Origin: Clostridiales bacterium
Lineage (GTDB): Bacteria > Bacillota > Clostridia > Tissierellales > GPF-1
Direction: 5' to 3'
DNA: 64,000 nt
Assembly (NCBI GenBank): GCA_013619125.1
Contig: JABXKS010000080.1
Coordinates: 1-64,000 of the forward strand
Program-made: the position numbers and the translations under genes
In this document: piece by piece, positions 37,766 to 52,932 of the stretch
Numbering within the stretch: position 1 is the stretch's first letter
How the letters are laid out: the number at the start of each line of letters is the position of its first letter
The notes under the pieces: model-generated
Database searches by the model: none
What the model was told of the DNA's origin: nothing
The model's input: only the letters and a program-made list of their open reading frames with translations

Positions 37766-37803
37766 AATGCAATAAGAATAAAATTTCTTGCATGGAGGAT
37801 ACA

Positions 37804-39738
37804 ATGGGAAAAACATTAGCGTACAAAATTCTGGAAAAAAATTTACAAGTTGGCACATTGACACAAGGAGAAGAACTCTCCATCCGCGTCAACCAAACTT
37901 TGACTCAAGATTCAACGGGCACCATGGTTTATTTACAATTGGAAGCAATGGGCATTGATTCCATCAAAACCGATCGATCCGTTGCCTATATCGATCACAA
38001 TACCTTGCAAGCCGGTTTTGAAAACGCAGACGATCATCTCTTTATTCAAACTGCGGCTGCCAAGTACGGCATCGTCTTCTCAAAACCCGGAAACGGGATC
38101 TGTCACCAATTGCATCTGGAACGTTTCGGCAAGCCTGGCGAAGTATTAATCGGCTCCGACAGCCATACCCCAACAGGCGGTGGAATCGGCATGATTGCCA
38201 TCGGTTCCGGTGGATTGGATGTTGCCGTCGCTATGGCGAAGGGCAGCTATCCTATGAAAGCACCAAAGGTATACGAAATCCATTTAATCGGCAGCTTACC
38301 GCCATGGTCTTCTGCAAAAGACGTGATTTTAGAAGTCCTTAGAAACCTCAGTGTAAAAGGCGGCGTCGGTTATATTATCGAATACACCGGCGAAGGTGTA
38401 AAATCCCTGTCCGTAACGGACCGGGCCACCATCACCAATATGGGCGCCGAACTGGGCGCAACGACATCAATCTTCCCTTCAGATGAACAAACGCTAGATT
38501 TTCTAACTCGCCAAGGACGCGCGGGAGACTATCAACCCCTGGCAGCCGATGAGGATGCCGTTTATGACGCACGCTTGGAAATCGACCTGTCCACCCTGGT
38601 GCCTATGGTTGCAAAACCCCATAGCCCGGATGCAGTTGCAACACTTTCAGAAATTGCTGGCATGAAGGTGGATCAAGTGGCCATTGGAAGCTGTACAAAC
38701 TCTTCCTATACCGACCTGATGAAGGTAGCTACCATTTTAAAAGGCAAGAGCGTTCATCCGAATGTCAGTCTGGTTATTTCTCCAGGATCTAGCAATATCC
38801 TGAAAATGATGAGCGATAACGGAGCCCTCGGTGATTTGATCGCCGCCGGCGCGCGAATCTTAGAAGCGGCTTGTGGACCATGTATTGGCATGGGACAAGC
38901 GCCGAAGAGCGGAGCCATCTCCCTTCGTACCTTCAATCGAAACTTCCAGGGCCGATGTGGCACCATGGATGCAGACGTCTATCTGGTCAGTCCCGAAATG
39001 GCGGCAATCGCAGCCATCACAGGTGAAGTTACCCTGCCCGCAGAATATGGCATGGAAGCACCGGCCATCGTCCTACCAGAAACCTTTGCGAATTTTGAAA
39101 ACTACTTGATCTATCCTCCAGAAGATCGAAGCGGATTGTCCGTTGTGATGGGACCGAACATCAAACCTTTCCCACTCAGCGGCGATCTACCTGAAAGTCT
39201 ATCGGGTTCGTTATTATTAAAAACAGGAGACAATATCACCACGGATGACATTATGCCATCCAACGCCAAGCTATTGCCGTTCCGATCGAATATTCCGGAA
39301 TTATCGAAGTATTGCTTCGGCACCATCATTCCAGATTTCAAAATGCGAGCGGAAGCTGCAGGCGGAGGATTCGTTATCGGCGGTGACAATTATGGACAGG
39401 GCTCCTCGCGTGAGCATGCCGCCCTTGTACCGCTTTATCTGGGTGTGAAGGCTGTCATTGTCAAATCATTTGCAAGGATCCATAAAAAAAACCTGATCAA
39501 CTCAGGAATTCTTCCTTTGGTCTTCGTTAATCCTGCAGATTACGATCGATTCAATGAGACCGATGAATTAAAATTCAATGCGGTTCATGATGCATTGGAT
39601 GGAAAAGCGTCCTTTGACTTGGTCAATGAAACCCAAGGCTTCGTTTGCAAAGTTGCCTTTGAAGGTTCCACTCGGGATGTTGAAGTCCTTAAAATTGGCG
39701 GTACCTTGAATTTCACAAAAAAGGAGATCCTATCATGA
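37804..39738 (+). CDS. acnA: Aconitate hydratase
   Basis: Converts citrate to isocitrate. At 644 residues it is the shorter monomeric form found in clostridia. Cluster ligands are in GSCTNSSYTD (~residue 298) and ACGPCIGMG (~360); active-site segments TQDSTGTMV, SDSHTPTGGGIGMIAIG and YGQGSSREHAAL are all present. ATG 37804 follows GGAGG by seven bases (four upstream codons excluded). First gene of a three-gene operon with icd, which it overlaps by 4 bp. The gene symbol follows common usage and could equally be given as acn. Confidence 0.95.
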   Translation: MGKTLAYKILEKNLQVGTLTQGEELSIRVNQTLTQDSTGTMVYLQLEAMGIDSIKTDRSVAYIDHNTLQAGFENADDHLFIQTAAAKYGIVFSKPGNGICHQLHLERFGKPGEVLIGSDSHTPTGGGIGMIAIGSGGLDVAVAMAKGSYPMKAPKVYEIHLIGSLPPWSSAKDVILEVLRNLSVKGGVGYIIEYTGEGVKSLSVTDRATITNMGAELGATTSIFPSDEQTLDFLTRQGRAGDYQPLAADEDAVYDARLEIDLSTLVPMVAKPHSPDAVATLSEIAGMKVDQVAIGSCTNSSYTDLMKVATILKGKSVHPNVSLVISPGSSNILKMMSDNGALGDLIAAGARILEAACGPCIGMGQAPKSGAISLRTFNRNFQGRCGTMDADVYLVSPEMAAIAAITGEVTLPAEYGMEAPAIVLPETFANFENYLIYPPEDRSGLSVVMGPNIKPFPLSGDLPESLSGSLLLKTGDNITTDDIMPSNAKLLPFRSNIPELSKYCFGTIIPDFKMRAEAAGGGFVIGGDNYGQGSSREHAALVPLYLGVKAVIVKSFARIHKKNLINSGILPLVFVNPADYDRFNETDELKFNAVHDALDGKASFDLVNETQGFVCKVAFEGSTRDVEVLKIGGTLNFTKKEILS

Positions 39739-40739
39739 ATCGAGTAACTTTTATTCCAGGCGACGGAATTGGACCCGAAGTCGCCAATGCGGCAAAAGAA
39801 ATCATCGACGCAACCGGTGTTGCCATTGAATGGGAAACCGTGAATGCGGGAGAAGCCGTTTTTTTAGAAAAAGGTGTTCTTGTTCCCGATGAAGTCTATG
39901 AAAGCATCGAAAAAAATCGCATCGCCTTAAAGGGACCCATCACAACCCCTGTCGGTAGCGGATTCCGAAGCATCAATGTTCATTTGCGGAAACGATATGA
40001 TCTTTACGCCAATATTCGTCCGATTCTCAGCTTACAGGGAGAACGATCACGCTATCCAAATCTTGATCTCGTGATTTTCCGCGAAAATACGGAGGGTCTT
40101 TATATCGGCGACGAGGAATTTTTGGATGAAGATACGGTCATCGCCAGAAAAAGAATTACCCGAAAAGGTTCCACTCGAATCATGGAGAGTGCCTTCGCCT
40201 ATGCAAAGTCAAATGGACGAAAAAAAGTCACCGTTGCTCATAAGGCAAATATCCTAAAAGACACCGACGGATTGTTTTTGACTTGCGCCCGCGCAGTCGC
40301 CGAAAAATATCCCGAAATTGAATATGAAGAAGTCATCATCGACAATATGTGCATGCAATTGGTCATCAATCCTTATCAATTCGATGTGATCGCCACCATG
40401 AATCTCTATGGTGATATCCTTTCCGATCTTTGCGCAGGTTTGGTCGGCGGATTGGGCTTGGTTCCAGGTGCCAATATTGGAGAAGACATTGCCATCTTTG
40501 AAGCCGTTCACGGCAGCGCGCCGAAAATGGCTGGCAAAAACAGTGCCGATCCAGTCGCCTTGATTCTTTCAGGCGCGAGTCTTTTGGATTACTTGGGAGA
40601 AACGGAAGCAGCAGAGAAAGTAAGAAATGCCGTTTCCTCCATTGTCAAAGAAGGCATCCATGTTACCAAAGACTTGGGCGGAACTGCGTCAACAACAGAA
40701 ATGACCGCCGCAATCATCAATAGAATGCAAGGGAAGTGA
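39735..40739 (+). CDS. icd: Isocitrate dehydrogenase (isocitrate/isopropylmalate dehydrogenase family)
   Basis: Oxidises isocitrate to 2-oxoglutarate. The 334-residue length and FIPGDGIGPEV start fit the short, NAD-type class; RENTEGLYIG, the KANILKDTDGLF segment and IATMNLYGDILSD supply substrate and metal residues. The cofactor loop reads HGSAPKMAGKNSADP: NADP enzymes have K-Y and NAD enzymes D-I at the K-M pair, so coenzyme choice is uncertain. Position between aconitase and citrate synthase argues for isocitrate rather than isopropylmalate. ATGA overlap with acn, four-base gap to the next gene. Confidence 0.92.
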   Translation: MNRVTFIPGDGIGPEVANAAKEIIDATGVAIEWETVNAGEAVFLEKGVLVPDEVYESIEKNRIALKGPITTPVGSGFRSINVHLRKRYDLYANIRPILSLQGERSRYPNLDLVIFRENTEGLYIGDEEFLDEDTVIARKRITRKGSTRIMESAFAYAKSNGRKKVTVAHKANILKDTDGLFLTCARAVAEKYPEIEYEEVIIDNMCMQLVINPYQFDVIATMNLYGDILSDLCAGLVGGLGLVPGANIGEDIAIFEAVHGSAPKMAGKNSADPVALILSGASLLDYLGETEAAEKVRNAVSSIVKEGIHVTKDLGGTASTTEMTAAIINRMQGK

Positions 40740-40743
40740 GAGA

Positions 40744-42090
40744 ATGAAGAAGGATTTCTTCGAATATCTAACAGATTTAGCCACAAAAAACAATCATATA
40801 CCCGCCATTGATTTTGATCGGTACAATATCAAGCGAGGACTTCGAAACGCCAATGGCACGGGCGTCTTAGTCGGTCTGACAGAGATCGGCAACGTCGACG
40901 GCTATGATATCGTTGAGAAAACCAAGATCGCCAAGGAAGGCCGCCTGTTCTATCGCGGAATCGACATTTTCGACCTAGTCGACGGATTTCAAACCGAACA
41001 CCGTCGTGGTTTTGAAGAGACTTCTTTCCTTCTGCTTTTCGGCAAATTACCAACCACGGAAGAACTGGCAGCCTTCAACACCCTATTGGATGAAAGGCGA
41101 AACCTGCCGGAGGGATTTACGGATTCCATGATTTTGGGCATCCCATCCCGCAACGTGATGAATAAATTGCAACGAAGCACCTTGGTTCTATACTCTTACG
41201 ATGATAATCCAGATGATTTAAGCATGCGCAACCTGATGGAGCAAAGCATCAATCTAATTGCCAAGTTCCCAACCATCATCGCCTACGGCTATCAAGCAAA
41301 AGCCCGCGCGTTTGATGGGAAGAGTCTTTACATCCACTTGCCAAAACCAAATGTGGGCACCGCGGAGAATATTCTTCATATGAGCCGCCCAGACAATCAA
41401 TACACCGTTTTGGAAGCGGAAACTTTGGATCTCCTCTTGGTAATCATGGCAGAGCACGGAGGTGGAAATAACTCTACCTTTGCCACCCACGTGGTCGCCT
41501 CCACAGGCACTGATACCTATTCAGCCGTTGCCACAGCCGTCGGTTCCCTAAAGGGACCCAAGCATGGCGGTGCAAATCTTAAGGTCTGTCAAATGATGCA
41601 GACCATCAAGGACGAGGTTGATGATTGGCATGACGCCGCTCAATTGCGCCTTTATCTGGAACGACTTTTAAACAAAGACGCCTTTGATAAAAAAGGGTTG
41701 ATCTATGGAATGGGACATGCCGTTTACACCAAATCAGATCCCCGTTCCGTTCTCCTTCAAAGAAAGGCAAGAGAACTTGCCCTCGAAAAGAATAGAATGA
41801 AAGAATTTGAACTTTACGCCAATATTGAGTCCATCACTCGCGCCCTCTTTTACGAACGCAAGGGACCTCATGCCCATATCGCATCCAATGTCGATTTGTA
41901 TTCTGGATTTGTTCTGGAAATGCTGGACATTCCAGAAGATCTTTACACACCAATCTTTGCCACAAGCCGAATCTCTGGCTGGTGTGCGCATCGAATGGAA
42001 CAATTGGTGAGCGATGACAAAATCATCCGCCCAGCCTATAAAACTGTCAACGAACTGCATCACTATCATCCTTTAAAAGAACGAAAATAA
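40744..42090 (+). CDS. gltA: Citrate synthase
   Basis: Condenses oxaloacetate with acetyl-CoA. A 448-residue enzyme with the catalytic triad in recognisable contexts: AEHGGGNNSTFATHVV (first His), GMGHAVYTKSDPR (second His) and NVDLYSG (Asp), plus GPKHGGANLKV. Last gene of acn-icd-gltA; the three together make 2-oxoglutarate from oxaloacetate and acetyl-CoA, in an anaerobe most probably for glutamate synthesis. No other citrate-cycle genes are present. The ATG follows GGGAAGTGAGAG. Confidence 0.95.
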   Translation: MKKDFFEYLTDLATKNNHIPAIDFDRYNIKRGLRNANGTGVLVGLTEIGNVDGYDIVEKTKIAKEGRLFYRGIDIFDLVDGFQTEHRRGFEETSFLLLFGKLPTTEELAAFNTLLDERRNLPEGFTDSMILGIPSRNVMNKLQRSTLVLYSYDDNPDDLSMRNLMEQSINLIAKFPTIIAYGYQAKARAFDGKSLYIHLPKPNVGTAENILHMSRPDNQYTVLEAETLDLLLVIMAEHGGGNNSTFATHVVASTGTDTYSAVATAVGSLKGPKHGGANLKVCQMMQTIKDEVDDWHDAAQLRLYLERLLNKDAFDKKGLIYGMGHAVYTKSDPRSVLLQRKARELALEKNRMKEFELYANIESITRALFYERKGPHAHIASNVDLYSGFVLEMLDIPEDLYTPIFATSRISGWCAHRMEQLVSDDKIIRPAYKTVNELHHYHPLKERK

Positions 42091-45381: not shown

Positions 45382-45410
45382 ATTATAACAGATTTTTCAT
45401 CATTTGTGAA
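45382..45410 (-). promoter_or_regulatory. Promoter of the kinase-like gene
   Basis: Minus strand TTCACA (45410-45405), 17 bases, TATAAT (45387-45382). The start site near 45375 leaves a ~25-base leader containing GGGTGAT. Confidence 0.75.
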
Positions 45411-45430: not shown

Positions 45431-46096
45431 CTATAATTTGTCAATCCAAGCCTGAATTGCCAACAAAATCGTGATATGAGCCGGATAAAAAGCATATCCT
45501 GTCCATTTCGGTAATTCAATTTGCCACCGAAACTCATGCCAAATTACAGGCAATGCCATGACACAAGCCAATTGAATCAGAACCACCCACTCGAAATGCC
45601 CCAATGACAAAACGCTCAAGGTGCCATATAACGCGGTCAAACCAAACAAATAGAGAAACGTTTTTTGCTTGTTTTCTCCAAACTTGTAAAAAATAAAAAT
45701 AATCAATAGTCCATATCCTGCATAATCCGTTCGCAAAAATTCAGCCATCAAAATTGCGGCAACCATGCCCAACATTTCCTGCTTTTCATAAGACGATAAA
45801 AAGAAAATCCCCAGCAAGAAGGTAAATAAAACATTTAAATGTCCCGCAAAAAGTTGAAAGGGAATCTGCGTAATCAATGCAAAAGCACCCAATCGAAGGG
45901 CGTATTTTTTTCGATCCCGGGTTCGCTGAAATCCAGTCGCCAAGAGATAGGCAAAGATTGGAAATGCCAATCGCCCGAATATACGCATGGCATAATAGAG
46001 AAATGTAGGATCCTCAGAAAAAAATTGAACGCCCACATGATCCACCACCATACTGATCATTCCAATGACTTTTAAAATATCATTCCGCTTCTTCAT
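45431..46096 (-). CDS. TraX-family membrane protein
   Basis: A 221-residue protein with about seven hydrophobic segments. The start KRNDILKVIGMISMVVDHVG and the LFGRLAFPIFAYLLATGF-like segment (IFGRLAFPIFAYLL) are typical of the TraX group, named after the F-pilin N-acetylase and widespread in Firmicutes with unknown chromosomal role, perhaps acyl transfer. ATG 46096 overlaps the end of the upstream gene by 17 bp and follows GGAGGG; 43 upstream codons are excluded. Last gene of a five-gene operon. Confidence 0.83.
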   Translation of the reverse strand: MKKRNDILKVIGMISMVVDHVGVQFFSEDPTFLYYAMRIFGRLAFPIFAYLLATGFQRTRDRKKYALRLGAFALITQIPFQLFAGHLNVLFTFLLGIFFLSSYEKQEMLGMVAAILMAEFLRTDYAGYGLLIIFIFYKFGENKQKTFLYLFGLTALYGTLSVLSLGHFEWVVLIQLACVMALPVIWHEFRWQIELPKWTGYAFYPAHITILLAIQAWIDKL

Positions 46097-47078
46097 TCTT
46101 TGGCGACCCTCCATTGCTCTTTCGATTTTCAAAAATACCGGACTGCTCGAACGCAGCAGGATCTCCCGTACAAGACAGGATTCGCTCTCCATTTTTCCTC
46201 TCCAGCCAAATATCCACTTTGCCATCGATCGTCTCTTTCAACTTTCGATTCATGGACCCGTTTTGCGGCGCACGCAATTCGCCCCCGCCAGATCGCAAGA
46301 TCCGAATCGACAAACGATATTTGCGATCCTCCAGCGTCAGATGAATCGCCTTGCCATCCTCTTCCCAATGTACAATTTTAGCACCGGTATAGGTTGAAAA
46401 TCGATACAATTGCTCTGGTGTCTGCAAGTAAGCGAGAAATCCCTCAAAGGAGGATCCCCCCCATGGAATATCGGCAACCGATAGCATAAAACTGGTTCCC
46501 GTCTGTTTAAATTGATTGGACTGAACCCAAATCCATGCGGAGGGAAAACTCGAGCCCCAATCCTTTTCAACATAGACCCGGCCACCCGTAAAATCAATGA
46601 CATGTTCCTGAATTTGAATCTCACCTGTCAGCTCGGCATCCATCATCACAACGGCATGATAACACTCCATCTTCGGCACATAACGGTACCACCCCATAAT
46701 TCCTGGTGCCGCCAACGTTACCGGATAGGATGTCGCGTCCTTGATTTGCAGGTCGCCCCGTATCCGTTTGGGCGAATCAATGCTGAGATGAATCCGATCC
46801 AGAGAAAAAACATTCTCACCGGCACGAACCTCGAATGGACGATCCTTCGTCACAATTTCCTCAATGGGATAGGAAATCCACATGCCTGTCTCCCAGCCTT
46901 GCACCAGAACTTGAAGGAAACCTTCCTCTTTTTCACCCCGTTGAAACCCTGGAATCAAAGCAATGGAATGGTGATGATCCGCACTGACCAATCGGTAATA
47001 CCAGCCTTCGAATCCCACTTGATGAGTTGCCTGTTGCCTCCAGGCAGGATGAAAAATCTTTTCAATTGATCGAATCAT
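46080..47078 (-). CDS. Tocopherol-cyclase-like protein
   Basis: A 332-residue protein with the features of the tocopherol cyclase family: FEGWYYRLVS near the start, GWYRYVPKMEC in the middle and the VYVEKDWGSSFPSAWIWVQS signature at ~170-190. In plants and cyanobacteria the family closes the chromanol ring; bacterial homologues in anaerobes have no known substrate and are unlikely to make tocopherol. It is the fourth gene of the dehydrogenase-TauE-dipeptidase-cyclase-TraX operon. ATG 47078 follows AAGGTGAT. Confidence 0.85.
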   Translation of the reverse strand: MIRSIEKIFHPAWRQQATHQVGFEGWYYRLVSADHHHSIALIPGFQRGEKEEGFLQVLVQGWETGMWISYPIEEIVTKDRPFEVRAGENVFSLDRIHLSIDSPKRIRGDLQIKDATSYPVTLAAPGIMGWYRYVPKMECYHAVVMMDAELTGEIQIQEHVIDFTGGRVYVEKDWGSSFPSAWIWVQSNQFKQTGTSFMLSVADIPWGGSSFEGFLAYLQTPEQLYRFSTYTGAKIVHWEEDGKAIHLTLEDRKYRLSIRILRSGGGELRAPQNGSMNRKLKETIDGKVDIWLERKNGERILSCTGDPAAFEQSGIFENRKSNGGSPKNEEAE

Positions 47079-47095
47079 CACAATCACCTTCTTTC

Positions 47096-48049
47096 TTATC
47101 GCATGGTATCTCGTATCACCCGCAGCCCATTTTCACAGAAAATTTTATCGATACTCGACGAGGATACCCCAGCTTTTCTCAACCCGTGCACCAATCGTTC
47201 CATTTCACCAACATGAGCCAGATCCATCTTTCCGCCAATCCCATCAAAATCGGTTCCGATGGCGGCAACTTCAACCCCGCCTTGATCGATCATATGAATC
47301 AGGTGCTGCACCAAAGAGTCAACGGTTTCATGATTCTCTTCATTTAAGAAAAACGGACAGAAATTCAATCCAATCACACCGCCCTGATCCGCAATCGCTC
47401 GAATCATCGGATCTGCGAGATTTCTAGTCACATCTTTGATTGCGCGGGCATTGGAATGTGAAGCAATAAAGGGCTTCTTGGAAATCTCGACGACATCCCA
47501 AAAACCGGCGTCGGAAAGATGAGACACATCCACAATCATGCCCAGCTCATTCATTCGTTCCACGACCTTTTTACCAAAGGGTTTCAATCCTTTTCCCATC
47601 AAAATTGGATCCTTAGCATTAGGATACCCCAAAGAGTTTTCGTAATTCCAGGTCAAGGTAATCAATCGAATTCCTTCTTGATGCAACCTCTCAAGGCGTT
47701 CCATCTTTCCTTCTAAAATCGCACCTTCTTCAATGGTTAAAATCCCAGCAATCCGATTTTCCTTCTCCAATTGAAGAATTTCTTCCACGTTATGCGCGAT
47801 TCCAATTTGATCCTGATAGGTTTCAACCTGACCCTTGAAATATGAAATCGCATTGATGGCATAACCAAAAGGATCCGGTTTTACCGTTTCATCTTCCCAG
47901 TCAATAAAAACCGCAAAGAACTGAGCCAAGGCACCAATTTGTTTCAATCTCTCCAAATCCAGATGACCGTCATTCTTCATCAAGTCCCCGGTTGCCGAAC
48001 CATTTACTAACCGTAAAATCGTATCGCAATGAAAATCTACCAATCGCAT
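47096..48049 (-). CDS. Membrane dipeptidase (renal dipeptidase family, M19)
   Basis: A 317-residue zinc dipeptidase. The first metal ligands are in VDFHCDT (~4-10), the bridging Glu in LTIEEGAI (~112), and the His residues in VDVSHLSD and ASHSNAR; IGTDFDGIGG near the end closes the site. Bacterial members hydrolyse dipeptides, including those with a D-residue. No signal peptide, so it is cytoplasmic. It starts 13 bases after the TauE gene and ends 17 bases before the cyclase-like gene. AAAGGAGG precedes the ATG. Confidence 0.93.
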   Translation of the reverse strand: MRLVDFHCDTILRLVNGSATGDLMKNDGHLDLERLKQIGALAQFFAVFIDWEDETVKPDPFGYAINAISYFKGQVETYQDQIGIAHNVEEILQLEKENRIAGILTIEEGAILEGKMERLERLHQEGIRLITLTWNYENSLGYPNAKDPILMGKGLKPFGKKVVERMNELGMIVDVSHLSDAGFWDVVEISKKPFIASHSNARAIKDVTRNLADPMIRAIADQGGVIGLNFCPFFLNEENHETVDSLVQHLIHMIDQGGVEVAAIGTDFDGIGGKMDLAHVGEMERLVHGLRKAGVSSSSIDKIFCENGLRVIRDTMR

Positions 48050-48062
48050 GCACTTTCCTCCT

Positions 48063-48773
48063 TTAGTTCCATACCGATAAGATCGTCATCACGCCGGACA
48101 CCATGACGATGCCATAGGTCATTCGCTTGAATTTCATCTCATCGATTCGTTTAAAAATCAAGTTTCCTACCACCAATCCCGCGGCTGCCGCTCCAAATCC
48201 TCGAATGGATTGAAAAAACATGGCCTGGCTGAACAGCCCTGCCTGCACATAATTCGGGATCGCAAAAACGCCAATCAAGAAAAAATAAGTCACGATATTG
48301 GCGCGATAGGTTTGCTTGTCCATATCATAATTGCTAAGAAGGATGACAATGGGTGGTCCTCCAATAGCAGCCGCACCCTTTAATAGCCCGCTTAAGAAGC
48401 CTCCAGTTACCATATGAAGCATCTTCCCGCCGCGGCGAACCCGATACCCCTTCGCCAACAAAACTGCCGCAGCAACCAATACGAGCCCAACAATGCCTTT
48501 CAGCACTGCATCATCAAAGGCAACCAAAATCCAGGTGCCTAAAGGGACCCCAACCATGCCAGAAATCAGCAAAAGACTCACCATCTTCACATCCGGTTTT
48601 TTTCGGATCTGGAACAATTGCGCCGTACCCAAAAATAATCCCACAAGAGTTAAAAGGGGCACTGCAACTTTCAAGGGCATAAACAAGCCCAACAAGGGAA
48701 GAGCAATCAGAACAAAGCCAAAATTAGCAGCCCCCTGAACGGCACCCGCTATAAACAAAAACAAGTACACCAT
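48063..48773 (-). CDS. TauE/SafE-family permease
   Basis: A 236-residue membrane protein with about eight helices. The two half-repeats of the family are visible: GAVQGAANFGFVLIALPLL at the start and GGFLSGLLKGAAAIGGPPIV after the middle. Family members export sulfite, sulfoacetate or other small organic anions. Its ATG is two bases after the dehydrogenase stop, with AAGGAGT inside the end of that gene. A small-acid substrate tied to the adjacent hydroxyacid dehydrogenase is plausible but unproven. Confidence 0.9.
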   Translation of the reverse strand: MVYLFLFIAGAVQGAANFGFVLIALPLLGLFMPLKVAVPLLTLVGLFLGTAQLFQIRKKPDVKMVSLLLISGMVGVPLGTWILVAFDDAVLKGIVGLVLVAAAVLLAKGYRVRRGGKMLHMVTGGFLSGLLKGAAAIGGPPIVILLSNYDMDKQTYRANIVTYFFLIGVFAIPNYVQAGLFSQAMFFQSIRGFGAAAAGLVVGNLIFKRIDEMKFKRMTYGIVMVSGVMTILSVWN

Positions 48774-48775
48774 TT

Positions 48776-49729
48776 TTACTCCTTCACATTCTGTGGCGTT
48801 CCATCCATCCAAGCCGTTACATTGTCAAAGGTAATTTGTGCCCGGCGCTCGATGGACTCCTTTGTCGCAAAAGCCACATGAGGTGCCAACCATATATTCT
48901 TCGCTTGATGCAAGGGTTCCTCTGCTGGTAGCGGCGGTTCCATATCAAAGACATCAATTCCCGCTCCACGGATCAGTCCCGCATTTAAGGCATCCGCCAA
49001 GGCTTGATTATCCACAATCGGGCCTCGCGCCACATTAATAAATAATGCATCCGGCTTCATTTTCGCAATCAAATCGCGATTTATCATTCCCTTCGTCGCC
49101 CCCGTGAGAGGCGTATGAACCGAAATAATATCACTCTCTTCCATTACCTCGATCAAACTCTTATAGGTAAGTCCCAATGTTTTCGCTTCTTTTCGCTCGC
49201 TGCGCGAGTAGCCGATCAAGTTACACCGAAAAGCCTTAAACAGCTCTGCCGTTCGAAGCCCAATAGCACCCGTGCCAATAATGCCGACTGTTTTCCCAGC
49301 CAGCTCATTGCCAACCAATCCAACCCGTGTTTTCCCTTCCCGGGTTACAAGATCACATTCGCGTCCGTTACGAAGAAGAGTCAGACTCATGCCCAGCGCC
49401 AGTTCCGCCACAGCATCATCGCAATACCCTGCTGCATTGCTGATAACAATTCCCCGTTCCTTGCAGGAATCCAAGGCAATATGATCCACACCCACAAAGG
49501 CAACCGAAATCATCTTAAGATTTGCTGCCGCGTCAATCACCGCGGCTGGTAAAGGATGGTTGGCAATCATCAAGCCATCTGCCTCTTTGGCACGAGCAAT
49601 CATTTCCTCTTCATCCACCGCAATCGAATCATACGCAACAAATTCATGGCCTTGACTGTTAAACACCTCCGCCATTTCACTCACTTTTTCCGCTGCCACA
49701 CCCAGCGGCTCCATTAAAACAATTTTCAT
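48776..49729 (-). CDS. D-2-hydroxyacid dehydrogenase
   Basis: A 317-residue NAD-dependent enzyme interconverting a 2-oxo acid and its D-hydroxy acid (glyoxylate/hydroxypyruvate, phosphoglycerate and lactate dehydrogenase group). The Rossmann motif GIIGTGAIG is at ~residue 148; the catalytic Arg is in NVARGPIVD, Glu in DVFDMEPPLP and His in APHVAFAT. ATG 49729 follows GGGAGGAG by six bases; the frame to 49825 crosses the previous gene's terminator. First gene of the five-gene operon. Confidence 0.93.
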   Translation of the reverse strand: MKIVLMEPLGVAAEKVSEMAEVFNSQGHEFVAYDSIAVDEEEMIARAKEADGLMIANHPLPAAVIDAAANLKMISVAFVGVDHIALDSCKERGIVISNAAGYCDDAVAELALGMSLTLLRNGRECDLVTREGKTRVGLVGNELAGKTVGIIGTGAIGLRTAELFKAFRCNLIGYSRSERKEAKTLGLTYKSLIEVMEESDIISVHTPLTGATKGMINRDLIAKMKPDALFINVARGPIVDNQALADALNAGLIRGAGIDVFDMEPPLPAEEPLHQAKNIWLAPHVAFATKESIERRAQITFDNVTAWMDGTPQNVKE

Positions 49730-49766: not shown

Positions 49767-49798
49767 TCATAAAAAGAAAGACCGACTCTCGTCGATCT
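49767..49798 (-). terminator. Terminator of the MFS gene at 49797-50939
   Basis: Minus strand AGATCGAC-GAGA-GTCGGTCT then TTCTTTTT. It overlaps the stop codon, and implies that the dehydrogenase operon has its own promoter in the 70-base gap. Confidence 0.8.
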
Positions 49799-51907: not shown

Positions 51908-52282
51908 TTATACTTCTGCGATTACTTCAATCTCTACTAATCCGTCTTTTGGCAAACGTGCCACTTCCACACAGCTTCTTGCAGGAAAATTTTCAGTGAA
52001 GTATTGTTGATATACCCCGTTCATCGCGCCAAAGTCGTTCATATCTTTGATAAAAACCAAAGTCTTGATGATTTTTGACATATCCGTTCCGGCTTCTGTA
52101 AGGATCGCCTTCACATTATCCAAAGACAGTTTTGTTTGTTCCTCAATGGTTGCTGGCATCTCTGCGGCAGTCGTCATTCCCAATTGTCCTGATGTATACA
52201 CCAAGTTCCCAATCTGTACTGCCTGTGAGTAAGGACCTAGCGCCCCTGGTGCATTGGTTGTTGCAATAATTTTCTTTGCCAT
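51908..52282 (-). CDS. ridA: RidA-family reactive enamine/imine deaminase
   Basis: A 124-residue trimer-forming enzyme that hydrolyses 2-aminoacrylate-type enamines/imines released by PLP enzymes. The substrate-binding Arg is in PARSCVEVARLP (~102), the Glu in VEIEVIA at the end, and LGPYSQAV and YTSGQLG near the start are typical. Full family length. It begins two bases after a YheO-type regulator, so the two form an operon; regulator plus RidA pairs often go with amino-acid catabolism. Confidence 0.95.
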   Translation of the reverse strand: MAKKIIATTNAPGALGPYSQAVQIGNLVYTSGQLGMTTAAEMPATIEEQTKLSLDNVKAILTEAGTDMSKIIKTLVFIKDMNDFGAMNGVYQQYFTENFPARSCVEVARLPKDGLVEIEVIAEV

Positions 52283-52284
52283 GA

Positions 52285-52932
52285 TTACTCCTCCTTATTT
52301 GTTCGAACTTCTTCTATATAGTTGTAAATTGAAAACTTAGATACTTTGATCCTGGCTGCCAATACACTTACAGCACCGCGAATCGAAAACACATTGCGCT
52401 TCTCCAACTCAGCCACCACCCGCAAACGATCTTCCTTTTCCCAATATGGCAAGGGCTTTTCGCTTTTGGCAATCGCTCGGTCGATCATGCTCTCCATAAA
52501 AGACTCCGCGTCAGACAGATGGGTTTCTTTTTTCTTCTCTTCGGTAACTGTCAACGCTGTCAGCTTTGCCAGATAGGCTAAATCATCAGTAATGTCTTGA
52601 TTGATGCAAAGGGCGCCTACGACCTGGTCTCCATCTCGAATCAATACTGTTGAGGATTTTAAGATTCGTCCTTCGGGAGTTTCGCTTCGATAATTCAACA
52701 TCATCTCGTCTCCCAATTCACCGGATTCCAAGGTCTCTGCAATTTCGACCAATAAATCCGTTGCTGGTGATCCAACTTTCCGACCGGTTACTTCGCCATT
52801 GGCAATAGCAATTACTGTTGAAATTTCTCTTGTCAATTGATGTAAGACAATTTCGCATTGCCTTCCCAGAGCTGCACCCATAGCTTCTACCACAGGCAAA
52901 TAACTTTGTAAAATTGGATGAATCGATTCCAT
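52285..52932 (-). CDS. YheO-type PAS/HTH transcriptional regulator
   Basis: A 215-residue regulator: an N-terminal YheO-like PAS domain (~5-120; LHQLTREISTVIAIANGEVT, GALCINQDIT) and a C-terminal HTH of the family that follows it (~165-210; FSIRGAVSVLAARIKVSKFS then IYNYIEE). The ligand is unknown; relatives control D-amino-acid or cysteine catabolism genes. Co-transcribed with ridA two bases downstream. AAGGAGTGA precedes the ATG. Confidence 0.88.
   Translation of the reverse strand: MESIHPILQSYLPVVEAMGAALGRQCEIVLHQLTREISTVIAIANGEVTGRKVGSPATDLLVEIAETLESGELGDEMMLNYRSETPEGRILKSSTVLIRDGDQVVGALCINQDITDDLAYLAKLTALTVTEEKKKETHLSDAESFMESMIDRAIAKSEKPLPYWEKEDRLRVVAELEKRNVFSIRGAVSVLAARIKVSKFSIYNYIEEVRTNKEE

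Follow-up and report, generated by a model that had tools for sequence, protein, structure and literature searches.

The closest described relatives of the proteins encoded at this locus belong to five families, all of them well known. By sequence, the nearest solved structures to its dehydrogenase are 1wwk (named phosphoglycerate dehydrogenase) and 3ba1 (hydroxyphenylpyruvate reductase), and the nearest solved M19 renal-type dipeptidases are 3neh and Lmo2462 (3lu2). A DxxK variant of the first-helix motif has been described for TraX (PMC12423673), and the AttH/CrtC-type fold has been interpreted in the literature as serving lipid metabolism (PMC2954199). A literature search found no paper combining operon, TauE, dipeptidase and 2-hydroxyacid dehydrogenase; the host genus is under-sampled.

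In the window (the whole stretch of DNA analysed, 64,000 nucleotides from a Clostridiales bacterium) these genes form a five-gene run on the minus strand spanning 45431-49729, with gene ends read from the sequence. The intergenic distances of 2, 13 and 17 bases and the single 17-base overlap agree exactly with the figures in the initial annotation. The unit and its borders, in order of transcription, are:

49779..49798, minus strand: terminator-like hairpin with a T-run, separating the unit from the MFS gene upstream and kept in three genomes
48776..49729, minus strand: D-2-hydroxyacid dehydrogenase, 317 aa, PF00389/PF02826; the unit's first gene
48063..48773, minus strand: TauE/SafE-type anion permease, 236 aa, PF01925; gap of 2 after the dehydrogenase gene
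47096..48049, minus strand: M19 (renal-type) dipeptidase, 317 aa, PF01244; gap of 13 after the TauE gene
46080..47078, minus strand: PF14249 'tocopherol cyclase' family protein, 332 aa; gap of 17 after the M19 gene
45431..46096, minus strand: TraX-family membrane protein, 221 aa, PF05857; 17-base overlap with the PF14249 gene
45382..45410, minus strand: promoter-like site belonging to the APH-type kinase gene downstream (TTCACA-17-TATAAT with TG), where the unit ends

Each of the five genes is preceded by a purine-rich ribosome-binding stretch, and comparison with two congeners gives dN/dS values of 0.05-0.11 for all five, which reflects purifying selection and shows that all are real, constrained genes. 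The Pfam assignments of all five proteins exceed the curated cut-offs, so that the earlier labels of dehydrogenase, TauE permease, dipeptidase and TraX-like protein are borne out. None of the five reaches an NCBIfam equivalog cut-off, and no substrate is therefore assigned. PADLOC returned no match for any of them and a marginal one only for the downstream kinase, and a reading of the unit as a defence system was rejected on the lack of matches for the five.

Family assignments of the five proteins

The dehydrogenase (2-Hacid_dh_C, 5.9e-56) matches the solved D-isomer-specific 2-hydroxyacid dehydrogenases over nearly its full length and has the Arg-Glu-His triad in common with them; R235, E264 and H284, together with the Rossmann loop G152-x-G154-x-I-G157, are invariant among its aligned relatives, which places it among the D-2-hydroxyacid dehydrogenases. 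Unlike the named members, it lies under all of the NCBIfam equivalog cut-offs, scoring 219.6 bits against the phosphoglycerate dehydrogenase equivalog (cut-off 454) and falling below the cut-off of every other named 2-hydroxyacid dehydrogenase. Arg176, following the second Rossmann strand, suggests NADP(H) as the cofactor, and the enzyme, probably using NADPH, would reduce a 2-oxo acid to the corresponding D-2-hydroxy acid. The permease matches PF01925 (1.5e-27, 97.3 bits vs a cut-off of 32.6) over profile positions 3-235 of 237, a full-length match that identifies it as a TauE/SafE permease; its best relatives elsewhere in the order are 37% identical, and it would pass a small organic or sulfur-oxy anion.

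The dipeptidase (Peptidase_M19, 2.7e-90) matches its solved relatives over its full length and keeps their pattern of metal ligands (HxD, Glu, His, His) and active-site Asp, with H7, D9, E107, H177, H198 and D267 invariant in the alignment, and is a member of Peptidase family M19. It differs from the solved enzymes in having no NCBIfam match. No signal peptide is apparent; the protein is probably cytoplasmic, because it begins directly at the metal-binding HxD motif, and would hydrolyse dipeptides.

The TraX-family protein, scored on the longer open reading frame 45431-46225, matches PF05857 with 126.3 bits (2.2e-36; cut-off 25). It keeps D6-x-x-K9 and H20, with D6 and K9 invariant in the alignment, and thus has both the PF05857 match and the first-helix DxxR/K motif (here DxxK) in common with the TraX family/TmAT superfamily, of which it is a borderline member; it would accordingly be a candidate transmembrane acyltransferase. 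Unlike the TraX pilin acetylase of F-type systems it scores far below the TIGR02755 cut-off (36.3 vs 149.35 bits), and no pilin or conjugation genes are seen alongside it.

The fourth gene of the unit encodes a protein that matches Tocopherol_cycl (PF14249; 4.5e-24, 85.6 bits vs a cut-off of 26.6), with the match covering only profile positions 143-334 of 335 (the C-terminal 57%). A search of PDB sequences with this protein found no relative, and a literature search on the name of its family found no paper. An AlphaFold2 model built from four sequences (the window's and those of three loci) is of medium confidence (pLDDT 68.6, pTM 0.69), and its structural matches include the fungal pericyclases CghA (6kaw; Z 19.1), Phm7 and Fsa2 (Z 18-19), AttH NE1406 (2ich; Z 17.5), kievitone hydratase (7a0t; 17.2) and 25-phosphosteroid lyase (9g2i; Z 16.2), all well above the next rows at Z of about 8. 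The protein is thus predicted to adopt the AttH/CrtC-type double-lipocalin fold, with two packed lipocalin-like barrels and Z scores of 15-19 across 247-278 residues, an assignment of fold only: sequence identity is just 8-13%, and no substrate or catalytic residue is transferred. The label 'tocopherol-cyclase-like' stands as the name of a Pfam family and fails as a statement of chemistry, since the predicted fold is the broad AttH/CrtC type; the fold by itself shows no function, and the family label gives neither substrate nor reaction.

As no signal peptide is evident, the PF14249 protein is probably cytoplasmic, and it would bind, and perhaps isomerise, hydrate or cyclise, a hydrophobic metabolite. 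One can picture it as a true catalyst of the CrtC/CghA kind (isomerase, hydratase or cyclase) that acts on a hydrophobic metabolite and hands its product to the co-transcribed TraX protein for acylation, so that a membrane lipid or amphiphile would be modified in two steps specific to this genus; we regard this as very unlikely.

In other lineages, namely two genera of family f14 and also Jeotgalibaca and Monoglobus, PF14249 genes directly abut a gene for a DAO+Rieske FAD oxidoreductase, and the ends of the two often overlap (L048:7162-9653, L061:5889-8151, L062:7432-9763, L063:6009-8340, L006:165-2651 and L035:4692-6780; the L062 copy of the oxidoreductase was assigned by BLAST clustering only). 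No match to this oxidoreductase was found in the window's genus.

Transcription and conservation within the genus

The hairpin and T-run at 49798-49779, directly 3' of the MFS gene, hardly vary among three genomes, and the sequence from the hairpin to the start of the dehydrogenase gene is almost unchanged across them. At the other end, the promoter-like site at 45410-45382, 5' of the kinase gene, matches the consensus at 11 of 12 positions with a TG ahead of the second hexamer, and both hexamers are invariant in the same three genomes. The consensus promoter scan was overall no richer than for shuffled sequence, so the border calls rest on conservation and not on the scan. With a terminator-like hairpin before the unit and a conserved promoter belonging to the next gene, a single transcript of the five genes is likely; its start would probably lie in the ~70 bases that separate the dehydrogenase gene from the MFS hairpin, and its end before or around the kinase promoter.

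The family of the window's genome is represented in the collection by three genomes, all of one genus, and in each of them the five genes are closely spaced and in the same order. Compared with 91-100 kb of two congeners, the window keeps 44 of 58 and 45 of 58 adjacent open reading frame pairs in one collinear run, the synteny background being judged from ~62 kb around the unit. Because this whole region is collinear, conservation inside the genus is uninformative about these five genes, and it was rejected as support for a pathway, the regional background being equal.

Other gene groups stand out in the same stretch. A gene for a YheO-like (PAS_6/HTH_22) regulator is followed two bases later by a RidA gene (window 51908-52932), an arrangement kept in the genus. 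At 37792-42090 there are three plus-strand genes whose translations, read by eye, resemble aconitase, isocitrate dehydrogenase and citrate synthase; these overlap at their ends or lie 4 bases apart and appear to form an operon for the first half of the TCA cycle.

Gene neighbourhoods outside the genus

Each of the five proteins was searched against 249 genomes of the order, and TauE also against 391 genomes of the class. Within the order, PF14249 proteins occur in 32 genomes, TauE in 20 and close relatives of the dehydrogenase in 88, with M19 in at least 117 and TraX in at least 167. BLAST and profile HMMs of the five families were run on every open reading frame of 71 stretches, a few of them overlapping, that surround the best matches; outside the genus, gene-by-gene reading covered 25 of 29 genomes with PF14249 and 10 of 17 with TauE. 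Every adjacent pair in the unit includes either PF14249 or TauE, for both of which the lists of matches are complete. None of the four adjacent pairs recurs outside the genus in the 249-genome searches and 71 stretches, and the neighbours of these families otherwise vary from lineage to lineage. Scattering of the genes in relatives, which the initial annotation had taken as a sign that no functional link exists, is thus what is seen outside the genus, with no adjacent pair in the other genomes of the order.

This bears on the suggestion made in the initial annotation that the five proteins form an undescribed pathway, read here as one in which a single conjugate is cleaved, reduced, cyclised and acylated. 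Likely co-transcription and the retention of the five genes in three species of the genus speak for such a pathway, but outside the genus none of the adjacent pairs was found linked, and inside it the five genes are conserved to the same degree as the regional background, the flanks being equally kept. The suggestion is left unsupported, and we consider it very unlikely. On phylogeny alone a pathway specific to the genus or family could still exist, because only one genus of the family is in the collection.

Three arrangements came nearest to recurrence, and each was rejected. In genus g15 TauE and M19 lie near each other on the same strand with three genes between them, and an operon link was dismissed because these are ApbE (on the opposite strand), MscS and signal peptidase genes. 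A PF14249-M19 link in genus g89 was set aside with six to seven genes intervening. In five genomes of family f6 (L114:3765-5909, L115-L118) TraX divergently adjoins a dehydrogenase-fold gene in a constant arrangement; the latter encodes a 388-aa protein of the phosphoglycerate dehydrogenase type with 28-30% identity to the window dehydrogenase, and the pair is not a recurrence of the unit, since this gene is a divergently transcribed paralogue and not an orthologue.

A narrower proposal treats the first three genes as a module for peptide catabolism. The M19 enzyme would free amino acids from dipeptides (possibly L,D-), transaminases would convert these to 2-oxo acids, the dehydrogenase would dispose of electrons by reducing the 2-oxo acids to D-2-hydroxy acids, and export of the acid anion would fall to TauE, with the PF14249 and TraX genes as passengers. 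Every step suits its enzyme family, the RidA and YheO-like regulator genes are the third and fourth genes upstream of the dehydrogenase gene (past the MFS and GNAT genes), and TauE is near M19 on the same strand in one other genus. However, unrelated genes interrupt that proximity, the unit lacks a transaminase or oxidase, 14 stretches from other families show no constant partner for the dehydrogenase orthologues, and six TauE stretches from the wider class contain neither M19 nor the dehydrogenase. We think a module of this kind unlikely.

A probable genus-limited convenience operon

Taken together, the unit is very probably a convenience operon limited to the genus, an ordinary polycistronic unit that combines five unrelated genes, some metabolic and some for membrane proteins, and not a dedicated pathway, and the five proteins would most likely act separately. 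The initial annotation had named a convenience operon as its second option, and this is supported by the lack of any adjacent pair in the genomes of the order searched outside the genus and by collinearity that is region-wide within it. Besides the representation of the family by a single genus, two observations count against it: the genes are tightly spaced, with one pair of ends overlapping, as can be the case where functions are linked, and the position of TraX next to a dehydrogenase-fold gene in f6, although that gene is a divergent paralogue of 28-30% identity.

The locus is mainly a caution: tight spacing and conservation among close relatives mimicked a pathway, but the flanks are no less conserved, and outside the genus the genes are scattered. 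A useful by-product is the fold assignment, at the level of prediction, for bacterial "tocopherol cyclase family" proteins, and the recurrent pairing of PF14249 with the FAD-Rieske oxidoreductase in other lineages offers a better handle on the function of PF14249 than does the five-gene operon.
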